A DNA stretch of 64,000 bases from Natronohydrobacter sp. (GTDB lineage: Bacteria > Pseudomonadota > Alphaproteobacteria > Rhodobacterales > Rhodobacteraceae), in NCBI GenBank assembly GCA_020832585.1, contig JAFIEL010000001.1, forward strand, positions 34,711 through 98,710, written 5' to 3'. Under the pieces are notes generated by a model. That model saw only the letters and a program-made list of their open reading frames with translations. It was not told the origin of the DNA and did no database searches. The position numbers and the translations under genes are program-made. Shown in pieces: positions 14 through 11,512 of the stretch; position 1 is the stretch's first letter, and every line of letters begins with the position of its first letter.

Positions 14-1264
14 TCAGTGCAGATTGGGCTGTGCGCCCATGCCTTTTTCGTCGATCAAATAGCCGCGCTCGAAGCGGTCGAAGCGGTAGGCGGTGGCGGT
101 CTTGTGGGGCGTGTCGGTGGCCAGAAGATGCGCGAAGCACCAGCCTGAGGCGGGCGTGGCCTTGAACCCGCCATAGCACCAGCCGCCGTTGAAATAGAGC
201 CCGTCGATATGAGTGCGGTCGATGATCGGCGAGCCGTCCATGCTCATGTCCATGATGCCGCCCCAGATGCGCAGCAGGCGCACGCGGCCAAGACCGGGGA
301 ACAGCGCCATGCCGCCTTCGGCCACATCCTCGATCACGGGCAGGTTGCCGCGCTGGGCGTAGGAATTGTAGCCGTCAATGTCGCCGCCGAAGACAAGGCC
401 GCCCTTGTCGGACTGGCTGCAATAGAAGTGACCCGCGCCAAAGGTGATGACGCCAGGCAGGACGGGTTTCAGCCCTTCGGAGACAAAGGCTTGCAGCGCG
501 TGGGATTCGATGGGCAGGCGCATGCCCGCTTTTGCCATGACGCGCGACGAACTGCCTGCGACCGCGACTCCGACCTTGCCCGCGCCGATGAAGCCGCGCG
601 ACGTCTCGACGCCAAGGCATTTGCCGTTCTCGATGCGGAAGCCCGTGACTTCGCAATTCTGGATGATGTCCACCCCGCGGCTGTCCGCGCCGCGCGCATA
701 CCCCCAGGCAACTGCATCATGGCGCACGGTCCCGCCCCGGCGCTGGGCAAGGCCGCCCTTGATCGGGAAGCGGGCATTGTCGTAGTTCAGGAAGGGATAT
801 TCGCGTTTGAGTTGGGCGACGCTCAGGAGTTCGGCATCTGCGCCGTTCAGGATCATGCCATTGCCGCGCCGGATAAAGGCATCACGCTGGGCATCCGTAT
901 GGATCAGGTTCAGGATGCCGCGCTGGCTGACCATGGCATTATAGTTGAAATCCTGTTCCAGCCCTTCCCAGAGCTTGAGGGAAAACTCGTAGAACGGCTC
1001 ATTGCCATCGAGCAGATAGTTCGAGCGGATGATGGTGGTGTTGCGCCCCACATTGCCGCCGCCGATCCAGCCCTTCTCGATCACGGCGATACGGTGCTGG
1101 CGAAATTCCTTGGCCAGGTAGTAGGCCGTGGCCAGACCATGCCCGCCGCCGCCCACGATGACGATGTCATAGTGTGGCTGGGGATCGGGGTCGCGCCAGG
1201 CGGGGGTCCAGCCCTTGTGGCCTGTCAGGGCCTCTTTGAGAACGCGAAAGCCGGAATAGCGCAT
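14..1264 (-). CDS. FAD-dependent oxidoreductase, sarcosine oxidase beta / N-methylglutamate dehydrogenase subunit (SoxB/MgdA family)
   Basis: N-terminal IVIVGGGGHGLATAYYLAKE dinucleotide-binding motif, GGGNVGRNTTIIRSNY and C-terminal YFNGGWCYGGFKATPASG typical of SoxB; the amine-utilisation neighbours make MgdA possible. Confidence 0.88.
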   Translation of the reverse strand: MRYSGFRVLKEALTGHKGWTPAWRDPDPQPHYDIVIVGGGGHGLATAYYLAKEFRQHRIAVIEKGWIGGGNVGRNTTIIRSNYLLDGNEPFYEFSLKLWEGLEQDFNYNAMVSQRGILNLIHTDAQRDAFIRRGNGMILNGADAELLSVAQLKREYPFLNYDNARFPIKGGLAQRRGGTVRHDAVAWGYARGADSRGVDIIQNCEVTGFRIENGKCLGVETSRGFIGAGKVGVAVAGSSSRVMAKAGMRLPIESHALQAFVSEGLKPVLPGVITFGAGHFYCSQSDKGGLVFGGDIDGYNSYAQRGNLPVIEDVAEGGMALFPGLGRVRLLRIWGGIMDMSMDGSPIIDRTHIDGLYFNGGWCYGGFKATPASGWCFAHLLATDTPHKTATAYRFDRFERGYLIDEKGMGAQPNLH

Positions 1265-1823: not shown

Positions 1824-3194
1824 ATGTCACTCAATCTCGCAACGGTTCAGGCTGATCAGGTCAGCCTGGCCTCGCTGGTACAAAACCTTGTCTATGCCTC
1901 TGGCACGGTCGGCGCGATCATGGTCGTGGTCGGCCTGCTGATGATCGACGCAGGGACGACGCGCAGCAAGAACCTGCTGACCTCGACCATCGAGAAGCTG
2001 ATGGGCTTCTTCATCGGGTTTGCGGTCTATTTCCTGATCGGCTTCGCGTTCTGGGCCGCGCAATATTACGTCATGGAAGAGGCCACGCTGGGCGATTCCA
2101 TCGCTGATTGGTGGTTGGGCGGCGGCATGGTCAATGCTCGTGCGCATGAAGTGCCCGGCGATGTGTTCCCGGGGCTGAACAACTTCCAGATCTTCGTGTT
2201 CTTCCTGGCCTGCTTTGCCGGGATCATCAATGTTCTGTTGCATTTCGCTGTCGCCGAACGGATGAAGGCTGCGGCCTATTTTGTGATGTGTATCGCCGCG
2301 ACGCTGGTCTCTTCCGCGCTGAGTTGGGCGACATGGGGGTCGGTCGGGCCGCTGACCAATCCTGGTTTCCACGACTTCTTCGGGGTGGGCTTCGTCTATC
2401 TGTTCCCGGCAGGCATGGCGCTGGTGCTGGTGCCGAAACTGGGGGCGCGTCCGGGCATGTTCGCGCCGCACCCCAAAGTGCCCAGCTATAATGCACCGAG
2501 CATCGGGCTGGCTGCGACGGGTCTGATGACGATTTTCGCAGGCCTGCCCATGGTGATCCTGTCGTGCCTGTTCTTCTTCGACCCCGAGGCGCTGGCCGTG
2601 TCGGTGACGATGGCGAATACCTCTGTCGGTATCGCGTTCAACAATTACGGTTTGGCTTGGGCCGGTGGTGCAATCTCGGGTCTACTGATCGCGTACAAGA
2701 CGCGCAATTACGCCTATACCCTGCTGGGGCCGCTTGCAGGCTATGTTGCGGGCGCTTCGGGTTTTGATGTCTATCTGCCTTGGCAGATGTTTGTGGTGTC
2801 ACTGGGCGCGCCATTTGTCGCATGGGCGGTCTATGAGTTCACGCTCAAGCGCGGAATCGACGAGCACAAACTCTTTCCGCTGTTCCTTGGGGCTGGTTCC
2901 TACGGCTTGGTGATGCTGGGGATTTTCAAGGCAGGCACACCGCGCGGTGGCTATCTGGGGATCGAAGAAGGCGCCTATGCTTTCCAGCATGGCCAGATCG
3001 GGATCGTGATGCAGGTTGTGGGCACGCTGGCCTGTATTGGTGCCGGCGCGGTCACGGCGTTGGTTGTGGGGTTCATTCTGGACAAGACCATCGGCTTGCG
3101 CATCAGTGAGGACGAGCAGGCCGAAGGGCTGGACGAGAAAATCTGGGATGTGAAGCATGAAGGGGATTCCATTGTCCTGAAACCTGCCGAGTAA
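1824..3194 (+). CDS. divergent ammonium transporter (Amt/MEP/Rh) family membrane protein lacking the twin histidines
   Basis: Amt-like layout throughout: GLLMIDAGTTRSKN, AVAERMK, HDFFGVGFVYLFPAG, LFPLFLGAGSYGLVMLGIF and C-terminal DKTIGLRISEDEQAEGLD; RBS AGGAGAGG. Confidence 0.82.
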   Translation: MSLNLATVQADQVSLASLVQNLVYASGTVGAIMVVVGLLMIDAGTTRSKNLLTSTIEKLMGFFIGFAVYFLIGFAFWAAQYYVMEEATLGDSIADWWLGGGMVNARAHEVPGDVFPGLNNFQIFVFFLACFAGIINVLLHFAVAERMKAAAYFVMCIAATLVSSALSWATWGSVGPLTNPGFHDFFGVGFVYLFPAGMALVLVPKLGARPGMFAPHPKVPSYNAPSIGLAATGLMTIFAGLPMVILSCLFFFDPEALAVSVTMANTSVGIAFNNYGLAWAGGAISGLLIAYKTRNYAYTLLGPLAGYVAGASGFDVYLPWQMFVVSLGAPFVAWAVYEFTLKRGIDEHKLFPLFLGAGSYGLVMLGIFKAGTPRGGYLGIEEGAYAFQHGQIGIVMQVVGTLACIGAGAVTALVVGFILDKTIGLRISEDEQAEGLDEKIWDVKHEGDSIVLKPAE

Positions 3195-3320: not shown

Positions 3321-4094
3321 TTGTGCAAACCCGCAGCGGAATTGAAGGTTGGTGAAACGAGAGTGGGACTGCGAATGGCCACCAGACTGGATGCGGAGCT
3401 GATCTCTGGGCATAGCGTTGGTGGAACAGTGCAGGTGGTCATCGACACGCTGTTTGCCAAGATCAAGGCGGAAGAGTATCCCGCCGATACGCGACTTCCC
3501 AGTGAACGCTCTCTGGCGGCAGATCTTGGTGTGTCACGCAATACAGTGCGTGAAGCGCTGGATGTGCTGGAGTCCCATGCGATCATCCGTCGTCGTGCTG
3601 GCAGCGGCAGTTTTGTGATCTGGCGCGCAAGTGCGGCACCTGACAATCAGCCTGACAGCGTGGCCGAGCGGACCAGCCCTCTGGATCATCTGGTGGTGCG
3701 CAGTATCATCGAGCCAGAGATGGTGCGCCTGGCCACAATCAACATGAGTCCGCGGGAGTTGGACGAACTGGATGCGATTGTCTCGCGTATTGAATCTGTG
3801 CGAACAGATGTGACCGAATTCGTTACTTGCGAGGAAGACCTTTATCGCAAGATTGCCCAGGGAACGCGCAATCCCTTGCTGGAATCCTGCTATGAACTAA
3901 CGATTGCGGTCTGTCGGCAGAGTTTCCGGACAGCCCTGATGCGGCGGCATCTGACGCCTGATCGGATTGCAGAATACCAGAAGCGCTATAACACGCTGTT
4001 CAATGCGATTGCCTCGCGCGATGTCGAGGCGGCGGTCGAGTTCATCAAGCTACATCTGATCGAAGAACAGAAGCTGTTGTTGCACGAGGGCTGA
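3321..4094 (+). CDS. GntR-family transcriptional regulator, FCD subfamily (FadR-like)
   Basis: LPSERSLAADLGVSRNTVREALDVLESHAIIRRRAGSGSFV wHTH plus an all-helical FCD-like C-terminus; true start may be the internal Met (MATRLDAE, about 3375). Confidence 0.88.
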   Translation: MCKPAAELKVGETRVGLRMATRLDAELISGHSVGGTVQVVIDTLFAKIKAEEYPADTRLPSERSLAADLGVSRNTVREALDVLESHAIIRRRAGSGSFVIWRASAAPDNQPDSVAERTSPLDHLVVRSIIEPEMVRLATINMSPRELDELDAIVSRIESVRTDVTEFVTCEEDLYRKIAQGTRNPLLESCYELTIAVCRQSFRTALMRRHLTPDRIAEYQKRYNTLFNAIASRDVEAAVEFIKLHLIEEQKLLLHEG

Positions 4095-4136: not shown

Positions 4137-5372
4137 CTAAGTCAAAAAGCTACGCAGTGCCGGGCTTGCAACGTCTGATAAGCGTCCGAATCTCTGGTGC
4201 CATAGCTGACCAAGATCCGACATTTCATCAAATAACAGCGCTTCATGTTGTGAAAGCCAGTTGGGGATGGATTCGAAGCTGACGATCCGCGCCTTTCCTT
4301 CTTCGATCCTGACAACTGGCCAATCTCCGATCAGGGCATTGTCGATCCCGAACAGGTTCTCGCCCCACCATTGCGCAGGCCCGAACGCATGGCTGACCGT
4401 TCCCATCTGTTTCATGGCCGCCATGACAGAGGCAGCGCTCAGTGCACCCACTTTCTCGACGGCGGCATGCCAGATGTCCAGGATCGCGGCATATTCCCAA
4501 CTGACAGCGCTCCACGTCCCTGGAAAGCGACGTTGGTATTCACTGTAGAACAGGCTTGGCTGGTTGAAGAAGAACGCCTTTTCAGTGAGTGCCGGATCGT
4601 CGAAATCGGGGAACTGGAAGATGGTCCCTTCCATGAACTCAGGCGATGTGCGCGCGATCAGGCGATCATACTGGTCCATCGTGCAGGACAGGATTGTTCC
4701 AGTGAAGCCCTGTGCATGGGCGTATTCGGTCATCGCATGAACCATTGGCGTGTAGCTGGTGCACCAGCACAGCACATCCGGGTTCGCGGCCAGCATTGGA
4801 TCTACGATAGCCGCCACATCGGTCTGATCCGGGGGGTATTGAACTTCGGCACAGAGTGACATGCCGGTAGCCCGCAGCGCGGCGCGATAAGTGGCAAGCG
4901 AAGGCAGACCGAAGGAATCGCGCTGGCTGCACAGGGCGATGCGTTTCAGCTCCGGCCGCGTCCGCGCGAGCCAGGCGACAGCGGTGACGTTATAGACCGG
5001 GTGCACCTCTGACGGCGCAATCAGGGTGCGCATGTCGGGTGACAGGTCCGTAGGCAGCAGGGTCGAGGCGACAACCTTGTGGGTGTTCAGAAAATCTCTC
5101 AAGGGCGCGACCGTGTCGCCGCCCAGCATCATCAGGAGTGCTGCCTTGTCCGAGAGAACGAGTTTGCGCGCAGCTTCGAGCACCTGATCGGGGGATGTGG
5201 CCGAATCCTCGGCGATGATGCGCACTGGATAGCGCCGACCTGCGATCAAGGCGCCCCCTGCGGCATTGAGCCAGTCCTGCCAGATCTGGCATCCGTTCAG
5301 TCCCGGTAGGCCCCAGGACGCCGCAGGCCCGCTGAGCGGCACAAGCATGCCGATGGTGATCTCTTGCGTCAT
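4137..5372 (-). CDS. LIV/amide-type (Peripla_BP, AmiC/UrtA/FmdD-like) ligand-binding protein, apparently without a signal peptide
   Basis: MTQEITIGMLVPLSGPAASWGLPGLNGCQIWQDWLNAAGG typical of type I periplasmic-binding folds; the ORF could extend to 5438 but gains no convincing signal peptide; no permease genes adjacent. Confidence 0.78.
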   Translation of the reverse strand: MTQEITIGMLVPLSGPAASWGLPGLNGCQIWQDWLNAAGGALIAGRRYPVRIIAEDSATSPDQVLEAARKLVLSDKAALLMMLGGDTVAPLRDFLNTHKVVASTLLPTDLSPDMRTLIAPSEVHPVYNVTAVAWLARTRPELKRIALCSQRDSFGLPSLATYRAALRATGMSLCAEVQYPPDQTDVAAIVDPMLAANPDVLCWCTSYTPMVHAMTEYAHAQGFTGTILSCTMDQYDRLIARTSPEFMEGTIFQFPDFDDPALTEKAFFFNQPSLFYSEYQRRFPGTWSAVSWEYAAILDIWHAAVEKVGALSAASVMAAMKQMGTVSHAFGPAQWWGENLFGIDNALIGDWPVVRIEEGKARIVSFESIPNWLSQHEALLFDEMSDLGQLWHQRFGRLSDVASPALRSFLT

Positions 5373-5606
5373 GCCCACGCGGTAGCTGGGCAAGAGGCTG
5401 CGCATGGCGATCCGATGGGCGAAGCTGGGCTCGTTCATGGCTACGGTCTAGCATGGGAAAAGCGCGGTGCGAGAGCAGTTTTCGCATCTGGAGATGAAAT
5501 TTGGTTTCCCATGATGAAAATTGGTTGACAGATTGGTTCTGATTGGCGCAGTTTTGGTTCAATCAAGATATATAATTGGTCCAAACCTGCCGACACGGAG
5601 CGTCAC

Positions 5607-6953
5607 ATGTCCCAGAAAAGAGTTGCCATTATCGGTGCAGGCCCATCTGGTCTTGCGCAGTTGCGCGCCTTTCAATCTGCCGCCGCCAATGGCGAGGCAA
5701 TTCCCGAGATTGTCTGTTTCGAGAAACAAAGTGACTGGGGTGGGTTGTGGAACTACACATGGCGCACCGGATTGGACGAGAATGGCGAGCCTGTGCATTG
5801 CTCGATGTATCGCTATCTGTGGTCAAACGGTCCCAAGGAAGGGCTGGAATTCGCCGATTATTCCTTTGAAGAGCATTTCGGCAAGCAGATCGCTTCTTAC
5901 CCGCCGCGCGCCGTGCTGTTCGACTATATCGAAGGGCGCGTGAAGAAGGCAGGCGTGCGTGACTGGATCCGGTTCAGTTCGCCCGTGCGCTGGGTGGACT
6001 ATGATGACAGCACGGGTCTGTTCACGGTTACAGTTCATGACCATGAGAAGGACCATGTCTATTCCGAGACCTTCGATCATGTCATCGTCGCCTCTGGGCA
6101 TTTTTCGGTGCCGAATGTCCCGCACTATCCGGGTTTCGAGACCTTCAATGGCCGCTTGCTGCACGCCCATGATTTCCGCGATGCCCGTGAATTCGCGGGC
6201 AAGGACATTCTGGTGATGGGCGCGTCCTATTCCGCCGAGGATATCGGGTCGCAATGCTGGAAATACGGCGCGAAATCGATCACGTCCTGCTACCGGTCGG
6301 CACCGATGGGGTTCAAATGGCCGGCAAACTGGGAAGAGAAACCTGCGCTGGAGCGTGTCGAGGGCAACACGGCCCATTTCAGCGATGGCACATCAAAACA
6401 TGTCGATGCGATCATCCTGTGCACGGGTTACAAGCATTTCTTCAATTTCCTGCCCGACGACCTGCGCCTGAAAACCGCGAACCGGCTGGCCACGGCAGAC
6501 CTGTATAAGGGCGTGGTCTGGGTGCATAACCCCAAGGTCTTTTATCTTGGGATGCAGGACCAGTGGTTCACGTTCAACATGTTCGATGCGCAAGCCTGGT
6601 GGGTGCGTGATGCGATCATGGACAAGATCGAGATTCCTTCCGACAAGGACACGCTGCTGGCGGATGTGGCAGAGCGTGTGGCGCGCGAAGATGCCGGAGA
6701 AGATACGAAATACGCGATCCAGTATCAGGCCGATTACGTCAAGGAACTGGTGGCGGAAACCGACTATCCGTCGTTTGACATTGACGGGGCATCGGAAGCT
6801 TTCTTCGAGTGGAAAAAGCACAAGGCCAAGGATATCATGGCGTTTCGCGACAACAGTTACCGCTCGGTCATCACCGGCAGCATGGCACCTGTGCATCATA
6901 CGCCGTGGAAAGATGCGCTCGATGACAGCATGGAGAGCTATCTGGAGAACTGA
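5607..6953 (+). CDS. tmm: trimethylamine monooxygenase (flavin-containing monooxygenase)
   Basis: [79 protein letters not shown] and [15 protein letters not shown]-type NADP motif; closely resembles recalled bacterial Tmm sequences. Confidence 0.93.
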
Positions 6954-7162: not shown

Positions 7163-8149
7163 ATGCAAAAAACGACTTATTCAAAGATCGCCACAGCTTG
7201 TGCCGCGAGCATGTTCCTGTTTGGTGCGTCCGCAGCGTCGGCAGATGATTGCCCCAATCGCGGGGATCTGGATGACATGTTCTGCGATGTCGATGGCGAT
7301 CTGGTTGCGGATACACCAGCAGATCCGTCACAGTGGCGCGATCCCTCGACGCTGGTTTTCGCCTATACGCCTGTCGAAGACCCGGCAGTCTATGCCAATA
7401 TCTTTTCGGATTTCGTTGACTATCTGGCAGAGTGCACTGACCGCAATGTCGTGTATTTCAATGTCCAGTCGAACGCAGCACAGATCGAGGCAATGCGCTC
7501 GGGGCGGTTGCATATCGGCGGTTTCTCGACGGGGCCGACCGGTTTTGCCGTGAACCTTGCGGGGGCTGTGCCATTTGCCGTAAAAGGCGATGTAGAGGAT
7601 TGGCAGGGCTACAATCTGATCGTGATCGTGCGGGCAGACAGCGACATTCATGACCTGACCGATCTGGCAGGCAAGCGGATGGCGCACACGTCCGCTTCGT
7701 CCAATTCGGGGAATCTGGCCCCGATGGCGCTTTTCCCCGATGCCGGTCTGACACCGGGAGAGGATTACGAAGTGCTTTTCTCGGGCGGGCATGACAACTC
7801 GGTCATGGGCGTCGATTCGGGCGACTATGACGGGGCAGCGGTCGCTTCGGACGTGTTCGAGCGGATGGCGCGGCGCGGGCAGGTCAATGAGGATGATTTC
7901 CGTATCGTCTATACCTCCGAGCGGTTCCCGACATCGTCTTTCGCTTATGACAGCCGCCTTGCGCCAGAACTGCGTGATACGATGCTGGCATGTTTCCTGG
8001 ACTATACCTTTACCGAAGACATGCAGCGCGAATTTGGCGGGGCTGACCGGTTCTTCCCGGTGACATATGCCGAACATTGGGACGTCGTCCGTCGCGTCGC
8101 AGATGCGTCCGGCGCACCGTTTAACCGGACGACCTGGGAAAGCCAGTGA
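7163..8149 (+). CDS. phnD: phosphonate/phosphate-ester ABC transporter substrate-binding protein (PhnD family)
   Basis: signal peptide; [55 protein letters not shown]; followed by PhnC and two PhnE genes. Confidence 0.88.
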
Positions 8150-8976
8150 GCGTCGCGGAAGACCGGACAAGCCGGAGCGCAATGCGCGCTCCGGCAAGGG
8201 ACGCAGCGCGGAGCAATGTGCTCTCGCTGCGCAACCTGACCAAAGCTTATGAGCGCGGCAAGCCCGTGCTTTCAGATATCTCGCTGGACTTCCCTGCGCG
8301 TGGTGTGGTCGCGATTATCGGACCTTCCGGCACGGGGAAATCCACGCTGATCCGCTGTATCAACCGGCTGGTAGAGCCGACCTCGGGGCAGGTCTTGCTG
8401 GGGGACACGGATCTGACGACGCTGCGTGGGGCGGCTCTGCGTGCTGCGCGTCGCGAAATCGGGATGGTGTTTCAGGAATACAACCTGGTTGAACGTCTGA
8501 GCGTGATCGAGAACCTGCTCTGCGGGCGTCTTGGCTATGTGCCGCTTTGGCGTGTCTGGATGCGCCGCTTTCCCGACGATGATATTGCCCGTGCTTTCGC
8601 TCTGCTGGAGCGCGTGGGCCTTGCCGAATTCGCCACGCGGCGCGCAGATGCGCTGTCAGGTGGCCAGCGTCAGCGTGTCGGGATCGCGCGCGCGGTCATG
8701 CAATCACCGCGACTGTTGCTTGCTGACGAGCCGACTAGCTCACTTGATCCGCGGACATCTGTCGAGATCATGGAATTGATGCGCGACATGGCGGCGGAAC
8801 GCGATATCCCGGTGATCATCAACATTCATGACGTGGCTCTTGCGCGGCGCTTTGCCAGCCGGATTGTCGGCATGTCGGGCGGATCAGTGGTCTATGACGG
8901 GCCGCCCGAGGGGCTGAATGATGAGCATCTGACCCAGATCTATGGGCGCAGCGAAACAGGCGGCTGGATCGGATGA
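8146..8976 (+). CDS. phnC: PhnC-type ABC transporter ATP-binding protein
   Basis: [17 protein letters not shown] Walker [37 protein letters not shown] start overlaps the phnD stop, alternative ATG at 8182. Confidence 0.92.
8171..8195 (+). promoter_or_regulatory. intercistronic hairpin at the phnD-phnC junction
   Basis: GCCGGAGCGC-AATGC-GCGCTCCGGC, perfect 10-bp stem. Confidence 0.6.
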
Positions 8977-9773
8977 GTATGCGACAGACGGAACTGGATC
9001 AGATTCGCGCCCGCGCTTTTGCGCCAGACTGGCGTATGCGGGCCGTCTGGCTGGGCTTTGCGGTCTATGTGATCTATGCGACAGGTCAGTTGAATTTCAC
9101 ATGGGAACGTTTTGTTGTCGGACTGGATCGCGGGGCGACCTTTCTCGGCCGGATGTTTCCGCCGGAATTCACGCGTTGGGAATTATTGGCGGAAGGGCTG
9201 CTGGAAAGTCTTCAGATCGCGATCATTTCATCAGCCATCGGTATCTTGTTGTCGCTGCCGATTGGTCTGATGGCGGCGCGAAATCTGATGCCTGTGGCCG
9301 TGACCGTGCCCGCGCGCGCATTCATCGCCCTCGCGCGATCCTTTCACCCGATCATCATTGCGATCATTTTCGTCAAGGCGATTGGCTTCGGACCACTGGC
9401 AGGCATCTTCGCACTGATCTTTGCGTCGATCGGGTTCGTCGCGAAGCTCTTTGCCGAAGCGATCGAGGAGATCTCGCTCAAGCAGGTGGAAGCCGTACGC
9501 GCAACAGGAGCCAGTTTCATGGGTGTCGTGATAATGGGGGTGCTGCCGCAGGTGTTTTCGCGCTTCATCGGCTTTGCCACATATCAGTTGGACAGCAATC
9601 TGCGCCAATCGACCATGGTCGGAATCGTTGGCGGTGGCGGGATCGGGGGGACGCTCTTCTCTGCCTTCCGCCGGTTTGATTATGATTTCGTCTGCGCGAT
9701 CCTGATCTCCATTATCGCCATGATCATGGTGGGTGAATTGATTGCCTCTTGGCTGAGAAAGACTTTCCAGTGA
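8973..9773 (+). CDS. phnE: PhnE-type ABC transporter permease (1)
   Basis: permease with [29 protein letters not shown] (EAA loop); ATGA overlap with phnC. Confidence 0.9.
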
Positions 9774-10585
9774 GCGTGACAACAACCACACCGCCCTCGG
9801 GCCCGACATGGCAGCGCTTTACTCCCGCAGAGCGGCTTGCCCGTTATGCCGTCTATCTGGTCGCGGTCATGGCACTGGTCTGGTCGGTGCGCAATGTAAG
9901 TATCATCCCCGAGTTCCTCTATGATGCGCATACCCAGATGGCCGATCTGCTGACCCGCATGTGGCCGCCTGATCTGAGCTATTATCCGACAACCGTGCAT
10001 GGCGCGCTGATAGAGACCTTGCACATCGCAACACTCGGCACGATTCTGTCCATCGTGATGGCGGTGCCTATAGGGTTGATGGCCGCCCGAAATATCGTAC
10101 CGTTCCGGGCCGTGAACGAGTTTGCGAAACTGATCCTCGTTGCCTCGCGCTCGGTCAATTCGCTGGTCTGGGCGCTGCTTTTCGTGGCGATCTTTGGCCC
10201 CGGCGCGCTGGCAGGCACAATCGCGATTGCGTTCCGGTCCATCGGCTTCGTGGGCAAACTATTTGCCGAGGCGGTGGAAGAAGCCAGCCCCGGCCCGATC
10301 GAGGCGCTGACCGCCGCCGGGGCAAGCTGGCCTGCGCTGCTTCTCAAGGGTTATTGGCCACAGGTGCAGCCAGCCTTTTGGTCGATCGCCCTGTTTCGCT
10401 GGGATATCAATGTGCGCGAATCTGCTGTGCTGGGGCTGGTGGGGGCTGGCGGCATCGGGTTGGTGCTGGACACGGCGATGAACTTCTTCCAGTGGACGCG
10501 CGTCGCCACGATCCTTCTGGCCATTTTCGCGGTCGTGGTTCTAGCTGAGATTCTTGTCACCCAAATCCGCAAGCGGTTGATCTGA
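9770..10585 (+). CDS. phnE: PhnE-type ABC transporter permease (2)
   Basis: paralog of the previous ORF (VEEASPGPIEALTAAGASWPALLLKGYWPQ); GTGA overlap start at 9770. Confidence 0.9.
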   Translation: MSVTTTTPPSGPTWQRFTPAERLARYAVYLVAVMALVWSVRNVSIIPEFLYDAHTQMADLLTRMWPPDLSYYPTTVHGALIETLHIATLGTILSIVMAVPIGLMAARNIVPFRAVNEFAKLILVASRSVNSLVWALLFVAIFGPGALAGTIAIAFRSIGFVGKLFAEAVEEASPGPIEALTAAGASWPALLLKGYWPQVQPAFWSIALFRWDINVRESAVLGLVGAGGIGLVLDTAMNFFQWTRVATILLAIFAVVVLAEILVTQIRKRLI

Positions 10586-10588
10586 GAG

Positions 10589-11512
10589 ATGGGTCTTTCT
10601 CCGATGGCGCCCGGCTGGAGCGCGCGAGATGCAGTGGCGCGCTACGAAGTGATCCGGGCCGATCTGCCGCAGACGACTTTTCCGCCTGCCGCGCGCGCGA
10701 TTCATGATCTGTCCGAAGTCATCGCAAGCCATGATGCTTTTGTGCTGGATGCTTTTGGCGTCCTGAATGTGGGCGAAACGGCGATTCCGGGTGCTGTAGA
10801 GCGCGTGGCGCAGATGCGGCGTGCTGGCCGTTCTGTCGTCGTCCTGACAAATGGGGCGAGTTTCGCGAAGGAAAAGGCACTGGCGAAATACCGGCGGCTG
10901 GGGTTTGACTTTGCCCCCGAAGAGGTGATCGCCAGCCGCGATATCGCTGCCGCGGCCCTAGCCGACTGGCCGCAGGATCATGTCTGGGCCGCGATTACCG
11001 CAACAGGGGCCGAGTTTGAAGATATTCCCTTTGATCTGCGTCCGCTTGATCGGTCGCCTGATCTTTGGCAGCATGCGGACGGGTTTTTGTTTCTTGGGTC
11101 TGAAAGTTGGACCGAGGCCAGACAAGCGAGGCTGATTGCGGCACTAAAGGACAAACCGCGCCCGCTTCTGGTTGCCAACCCTGACATCGTGGCGCCGCGC
11201 GAGGTCGGGTTTTCGCTTGAGCCGGGGCATTTTGTCCAAGAGATCGCGCAAGAAACAGGGTGTCGCGTGCAGTATTTCGGCAAACCTCATGCCAATGCGT
11301 TCGAAGCAGTGCGGAAAGCCTTGCCGAGCGGGTTGCGTTCTGAACGGATCGCGATGGTAGGTGACACGCTGCATACGGATATTTTGGGTGGGCGCGCTGC
11401 AGGCATGGCAACCGTGCTGATTGCAGGACATGGATTGTTCGCCGGGCATGACCCTACGGGTTTCATCGCGGCCTCTGGGATTGTGCCGGATTATATCGCG
11501 GCAACGACATGA
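10589..11512 (+). CDS. HAD superfamily subfamily IIA hydrolase/phosphatase
   Basis: DAFVLDAFGVLNVGETAIPGAVE, VVVLTNGAS, YFGKPHANAFEAV, MVGDTLHTDILGGRAAGM. Confidence 0.9.
   Translation: MGLSPMAPGWSARDAVARYEVIRADLPQTTFPPAARAIHDLSEVIASHDAFVLDAFGVLNVGETAIPGAVERVAQMRRAGRSVVVLTNGASFAKEKALAKYRRLGFDFAPEEVIASRDIAAAALADWPQDHVWAAITATGAEFEDIPFDLRPLDRSPDLWQHADGFLFLGSESWTEARQARLIAALKDKPRPLLVANPDIVAPREVGFSLEPGHFVQEIAQETGCRVQYFGKPHANAFEAVRKALPSGLRSERIAMVGDTLHTDILGGRAAGMATVLIAGHGLFAGHDPTGFIAASGIVPDYIAATT

Follow-up and report, generated by a model that had tools for sequence, protein, structure and literature searches.

What does an Amt-type membrane protein carry when both histidines of its pore have been lost and its gene lies among genes for the breakdown of methylated amines? 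This question is raised by amtYF, a gene of Natronohydrobacter sp. (Rhodobacteraceae) located in a 64,000-nucleotide stretch of one contig, hereafter the window. In Escherichia coli AmtB, the twin-His motif (H168 and H318) joins two water wires, and NH3 and H+ cross the protein separately. As for trimethylamine (TMA), the compound that smells of rotting fish, its uptake route in marine and methylotrophic bacteria is, to our knowledge, largely unknown. The features of the locus are given in Table 1. An MgdA-type gene and tmm had been placed near amtYF by an earlier, sequence-only reading of this DNA, and both identifications were confirmed with NCBIfam models.

Table 1. Features of the amtYF locus; positions are those of the window unless another locus is named.
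Feature	Position	Strand	Remarks
mgdA/soxB-type subunit of N-methylglutamate dehydrogenase	14..1264	-	TIGR01373
amtYF, Amt-fold membrane protein without twin-His motif	1824..3194	+	ATG start, ORF of 456 aa
Asp184 codon, aligned to AmtB D160	2373..2375	+	Alignments; invariant in the clade
Tyr192 codon, aligned to AmtB H168	2397..2399	+	Alignments; Tyr in 79/79 clade members
Phe354 codon, aligned to AmtB H318	2883..2885	+	Alignments; Phe in 79/79 clade members
GntR/FCD-type regulator	3321..4094	+	TTG start in the ORF call; the true start may be downstream
Solo Peripla_BP_6 (HAAT-type) binding protein	4137..5438	-	No obvious signal peptide (judged by eye only)
tmm, trimethylamine monooxygenase	5607..6953	+	NF058570, 838.9 bits (cut-off 675)
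PhnD/PhnC/PhnE/PhnE-type ABC transporter and HAD-type hydrolase	7163..11512	+	3' of tmm
amtHH, second divergent Amt with both histidines	L004:5339..6691	+	Outside the window, upstream of dmmDABC

At the level of its predicted fold, AmtYF is a member of the Amt/Mep/Rh superfamily. The Pfam family Ammonium_transp (PF00909) covers residues 29 to 440 with 113.3 bits (cut-off 23.2), hhalign comparisons with Amt sets gave 99.6-99.8%, and the AlphaFold2 model (pLDDT 83.6, pTM 0.86) had Sd-Amt1 as its best Foldseek match, with AmtB also among the top matches and Amt-1 and Mep2 found as well (TM about 0.7-0.8 across all four, at roughly 20% identity). A search of the single sequence against solved structures returned no match, and a profile search was needed. 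With the NCBIfam model TIGR00836, the score was 124.2 bits, which is below the subfamily cut-off of 343.3. The protein consists of a single domain, and no fused signalling domain was found. Its dN/dS values against near relatives are 0.03-0.09, indicating strong purifying selection and ruling out a degenerate gene.

The sequence-only reading had proposed that H168 was replaced by Tyr and H318 by Phe, and both replacements stood up to MAFFT and profile-profile alignments. The correspondence of H168 with Y192 was given by MAFFT, by profile-profile alignment to two Amt sets (canonical Amts and the nearest twin-His Amts) and by hmmsearch against Archaeoglobus fulgidus Amt-1. MAFFT and the two profile-profile alignments likewise paired H318 with F354, and from F354 to GIF there is no gap relative to AmtB; one hmmsearch alignment, against Amt-1, sets L355 instead of F354 opposite the second histidine, and L355 is likewise not a histidine. 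Both histidines are present in the 27 more distant Amts (two of them canonical) of the clade alignment and in 24/24 other Amts of a second alignment. Since other Amts keep them, their loss in AmtYF is not a matter of chance or misalignment, a possibility that is also excluded by the agreement of several alignment methods and the invariance of Tyr and Phe in 79/79 members. No intermediate form with a single histidine turned up among the hits from 399 Pseudomonadota genomes.

The remainder of the protein is largely that of an Amt, as had been noted for the skeleton, the C-terminal tail and the D160 equivalent, all of which were recovered by Pfam, Foldseek and alignment. With AmtB and Amt-1, AmtYF shares fold, length, the outer-site and gate positions D160 (D184), W148 (W171) and F107 (F131), all three invariant in the clade, and the C-terminal GLR...GLD motif; the D309 equivalent is invariant too. 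It differs from both in the Tyr/Phe pair and in falling below the TIGR00836 cut-off, and perhaps also at the positions of F215, of the Phe gate of AmtB, and of W212, which correspond to V244 and L241 in one alignment, although this assignment is not secure, the helix being aligned differently in another.

A scan of species genomes provided 79 amtYF loci, 60-96% identical, so that an oddity of one genome can be discarded. They are distributed over two phyla, in Rhodobacterales, Aminobacter, Methylophaga, Methylophilaceae, Ectothiorhodospiraceae, Thiotrichaceae, Oceanospirillaceae and a few Actinomycetota. A contig labelled Enemella, with Rhodobacteraceae-like genes and possibly a contamination, was counted with the Rhodobacterales. 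The tree groups the members into one fully supported clade, which has a very long stem and short inner branches. The gene is rare: among 399 Pseudomonadota genomes, the only carrier is the genome of the window itself and, counting this genome, 5 of 199 Rhodobacteraceae genomes possess it. A further Amt, or more than one, was present in each of the 18 carriers tested.

By score and tree, the nearest relatives of AmtYF are the twin-His Amts of methylamine islands (AmtHH and the "D" Amts), with about 24-29% identity and a less secure placement in the tree. Unlike AmtYF, they have both histidines in every sequence read. They also occur in TMA-using Rhodobacteraceae: tmm was found in 26 of the 27 Rhodobacteraceae genomes with "D" Amts, counts that are approximate since this group was set by an E-value threshold.

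Concerning the genes that accompany amtYF, tmm exceeded the cut-off in 36 of 50 carrier genomes, or 37 if one partial copy, lying at the end of its contig, is included. Nine of the 13 carriers without tmm have a TMA dehydrogenase (at least 75% identity to a query that matches the solved TMA dehydrogenase). These enzymes carry Y60/S74/W105-type residues vs. Q/T/F in the DMA-dehydrogenase-like paralogues, and we take the former to be the TMA-type active-site residues that separate the two. Two Actinomycetota carriers have neither enzyme and possess a TMAO demethylase, and in two others, the Actinomycetota MAGs G240 and G241, no recognised TMA enzyme was found. As a whole, TMA- or TMAO-specific genes are thus present in 48/50 carriers. 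Tmm and TMA dehydrogenase being unrelated enzymes, the most economical link between them is the substrate they share. At the level of the loci, tmm, tdm or tmadh lies within 10 kb of amtYF at 40/79, a DMA monooxygenase at 17/79, TMAO demethylase at 16/79 and methylamine-pathway genes at 14/79.

These distributions, together with the pore residues, support AmtYF as a putative repurposed Amt of methylated-amine metabolism, with TMA as the best-supported substrate. We estimate at roughly 55% the probability that it is a TMA permease or channel derived from an Amt, and not an ammonium transporter. The broader proposal, namely that a distinct clade of the superfamily lost its proton-relay histidines, became a dedicated TMA channel and supplies the uptake step for TMA in Rhodobacterales and methylotrophs, is more tentative, and we place it slightly short of an even chance. 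A tree of twin-His-less homologues read against their amine-gene linkage had been suggested as a check; the monophyly of the clade, its presence in two phyla, the constant Tyr/Phe pair and its linkage to TMA genes favour the idea of a repurposed Amt. The emphasis placed earlier on methylammonium fared less well, the common factor being TMA/TMAO genes, both in genomes and near the loci (40/79 vs. 14/79).

A first alternative is that AmtYF carries the smaller methylated amines of the same pathway, DMA or methylamine, or exports or recaptures them. The genes for dmm or the methylamine pathway do lie near many amtYF loci, four Methylophaga loci have dmm about 7 kb away with no TMA gene nearby, and AmtB-type proteins carry methylamine weakly (PMC9040831). 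Moreover, organisms that use TMA break down DMA and methylamine as well, and association can therefore not cleanly separate these substrates. Among the 199 Rhodobacteraceae genomes, tmm was found in 46, gmaS in 61 and dmm (marked by the DUF3445/HODM protein, a DmmC-type subunit, the 209-aa protein being DmmA-like) in 29, and dmm tracks tmm almost perfectly (27/29). All five amtYF carriers have tmm vs. 41 of the 194 other genomes (Fisher p = 0.0006, the genomes not being phylogenetically independent), a link that is not significant within the 61 gmaS-positive genomes (about p = 0.08, calculated by hand). Of the 50 carriers, however, the Rhodobacterales have tmm in 32/32 (one partial copy), vs. 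62% of the gmaS-positive genomes among the 199 Rhodobacteraceae. In addition, in one carrier where dmm was not detected (G037, which seems to be the genome of locus L056), tmm and amtYF are 8 kb apart, and the dmm/gma part of the island already possesses a twin-His Amt. Taken together, these points make the smaller amines an unlikely substrate, although a better candidate than those that follow.

Less probable still is TMAO, a neutral dipole that would need no deprotonation and would leave the proton relay free to be lost. The two Actinomycetota carriers in which TMAO demethylase is the sole such enzyme fit TMAO as well as TMA, and the presence of this gene near 16 loci also speaks for TMAO. 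Against this, the enzyme of nine carriers is TMA dehydrogenase, and TMAO demethylase was found in 0/5 of those tested. Dedicated TMAO importers also exist already: the permease TmoP and the ABC importer TmoXWV, which serve the pathway proposed for AmtYF and belong to different protein families.

The arrangement of the neighbouring genes varies between lineages. In the window's contig, gmaS-mgsABC, the twin-His Amt, dmmDABC, the remaining mgd genes, and XRE and GlxA-type regulators are found upstream of amtYF, all but the regulators being noted as outside the window. The block formed by amtYF, gntR, the binding-protein gene and tmm recurs in many Rhodobacterales. The binding protein, conserved between amtYF and tmm and lacking an obvious ABC partner, may be a cytoplasmic amine sensor and not part of a transporter. 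One close Natronohydrobacter relative shares the Phn-type ABC block. The genes of Paracoccus alcaliphilus run tmm-tdm-amtYF, all on one strand and with amtYF directly behind tdm; here tmm and tdm are our assignments from gene order and length, the annotation giving an NAD(P)/FAD-dependent oxidoreductase and an aminomethyltransferase. The Methylophilaceae do not have tmm, and their amtYF is followed by a TMAO-permease-family (TmoP-type) gene and then, within 3 kb of amtYF, by TMA dehydrogenase. A point against the TMA reading is that in Leisingera, Aminobacter, several Roseovarius and Methylophaga the gene lies away from tmm.

Such neighbours bear on the idea that AmtYF is a non-conducting sensor, or transceptor, which would signal amine outside the cell to the GntR regulator encoded next to it or to the binding protein. 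A gntR gene is present at 29/79 loci, directly 3' of amtYF at most of these and in many Rhodobacterales, and Amt sensors are known (Ks-Amt5 and Sd-Amt1, the latter being the best fold match). However, the amtYF loci showed neither a fused nor a neighbouring kinase or cyclase, and a regulator is absent beside the gene in most other lineages, Leisingera, Aminobacter and Methylophaga among them. No GlnK partner of AmtYF was seen either: at the loci, GlnK occurs only at L083, where it adjoins a separate canonical Amt, and in the window's own genome it is the canonical Amt that has a glnK partner. Furthermore, Ks-Amt5 retains the twin-His motif, according to a 2023 review (PMC10433425). The transceptor suggested by the sequence-only reading thus received no specific support, and we regard it as improbable.

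Returning to TMA as the substrate, AmtYF would be a neofunctionalised Amt admitting TMA for Tmm or for TMA dehydrogenase. TMAH+ may be gathered at the outer aromatic and acidic site, and a hydrophobic, aromatic pore (Y192, F354, F185, F186 and F190) would let TMA pass, most likely as the uncharged base, through a gate possibly made smaller by Val and Leu at the F215 and W212 positions. With no His relay, coupled NH3/H+ conduction of the AmtB type could presumably not run, and ammonium would not be a substrate. Conduction of TMA would be passive, with intracellular oxidation holding the gradient inward. That AmtYF still moves ammonium, alone or with other cations, is the least credible of the alternatives: AmtB H168A/H318A does give channel-like ammonium currents in liposomes (PMC7447429), but the same double variant loses uptake of methylamine and ammonium in vivo (PMC3647058), AmtYF has invariant aromatics in place of the histidines and no small residues there, another Amt is present in every carrier tested, and the gene associates with TMA genes and not with nitrogen control genes such as glnK.

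Some known systems resemble AmtYF in part. TmaT, a structurally characterised TMA importer of the BCCT family, binds TMA in aromatic boxes (PMC11708041), which makes an aromatic pore a reasonable path for TMA. The two share the proposed substrate and aromatic surroundings, but TmaT is a Na+/TMA symporter of an unrelated family whose sites were mapped experimentally, those of AmtYF being inferred. It is also the structurally described TMA transporter that we found, and it belongs to another lineage. The engineered AmtB H168A/H318A lacks both pore histidines, as AmtYF does, but is a laboratory mutant. In fungal Mep1/3-type proteins, the change is natural and affects the first histidine only (to Glu), while the AmtYF clade has lost both.

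If the proposed role is true, the clade would represent a natural switch of substrate from NH4+ to a tertiary amine and would fill the missing step of TMA uptake. A clade naturally devoid of the twin-His motif also offers a clean test of whether its loss switches the substrate and ends proton-coupled conduction. As for previous reports, an "amt, unspecified ammonium transporter" was mentioned near tmm or fhs (PMC4744692), amt was found to co-occur in TMA/DMA/MMA clusters (PMC7574528) and "amtB, ammonia transporter" was listed elsewhere (PMC5520151), each of which may refer to either of the two island Amts. Three plasmid records annotate the amtYF gene itself as "ammonium transporter", and such annotations in TMA islands are probably wrong. 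The available text of the 2023 review describes the twin-His motif as highly conserved, with no clade lacking it and no mention of tri- or dimethylamine (PMC10433425), and a search of the open-access literature brought up no account of the missing histidines of this clade or of its link with TMA.

Two further observations concern genes adjoining amtYF away from the window. Leisingera, in which amtYF and tmm are far apart, has a conserved ORF of 65 aa directly 3' of amtYF (L046:11491-11685 and other loci). On two Paracoccus plasmids, a group II truncated hemoglobin gene is found 0-1 genes from amtYF (L191:13873-14277 and L193:13429-13833).
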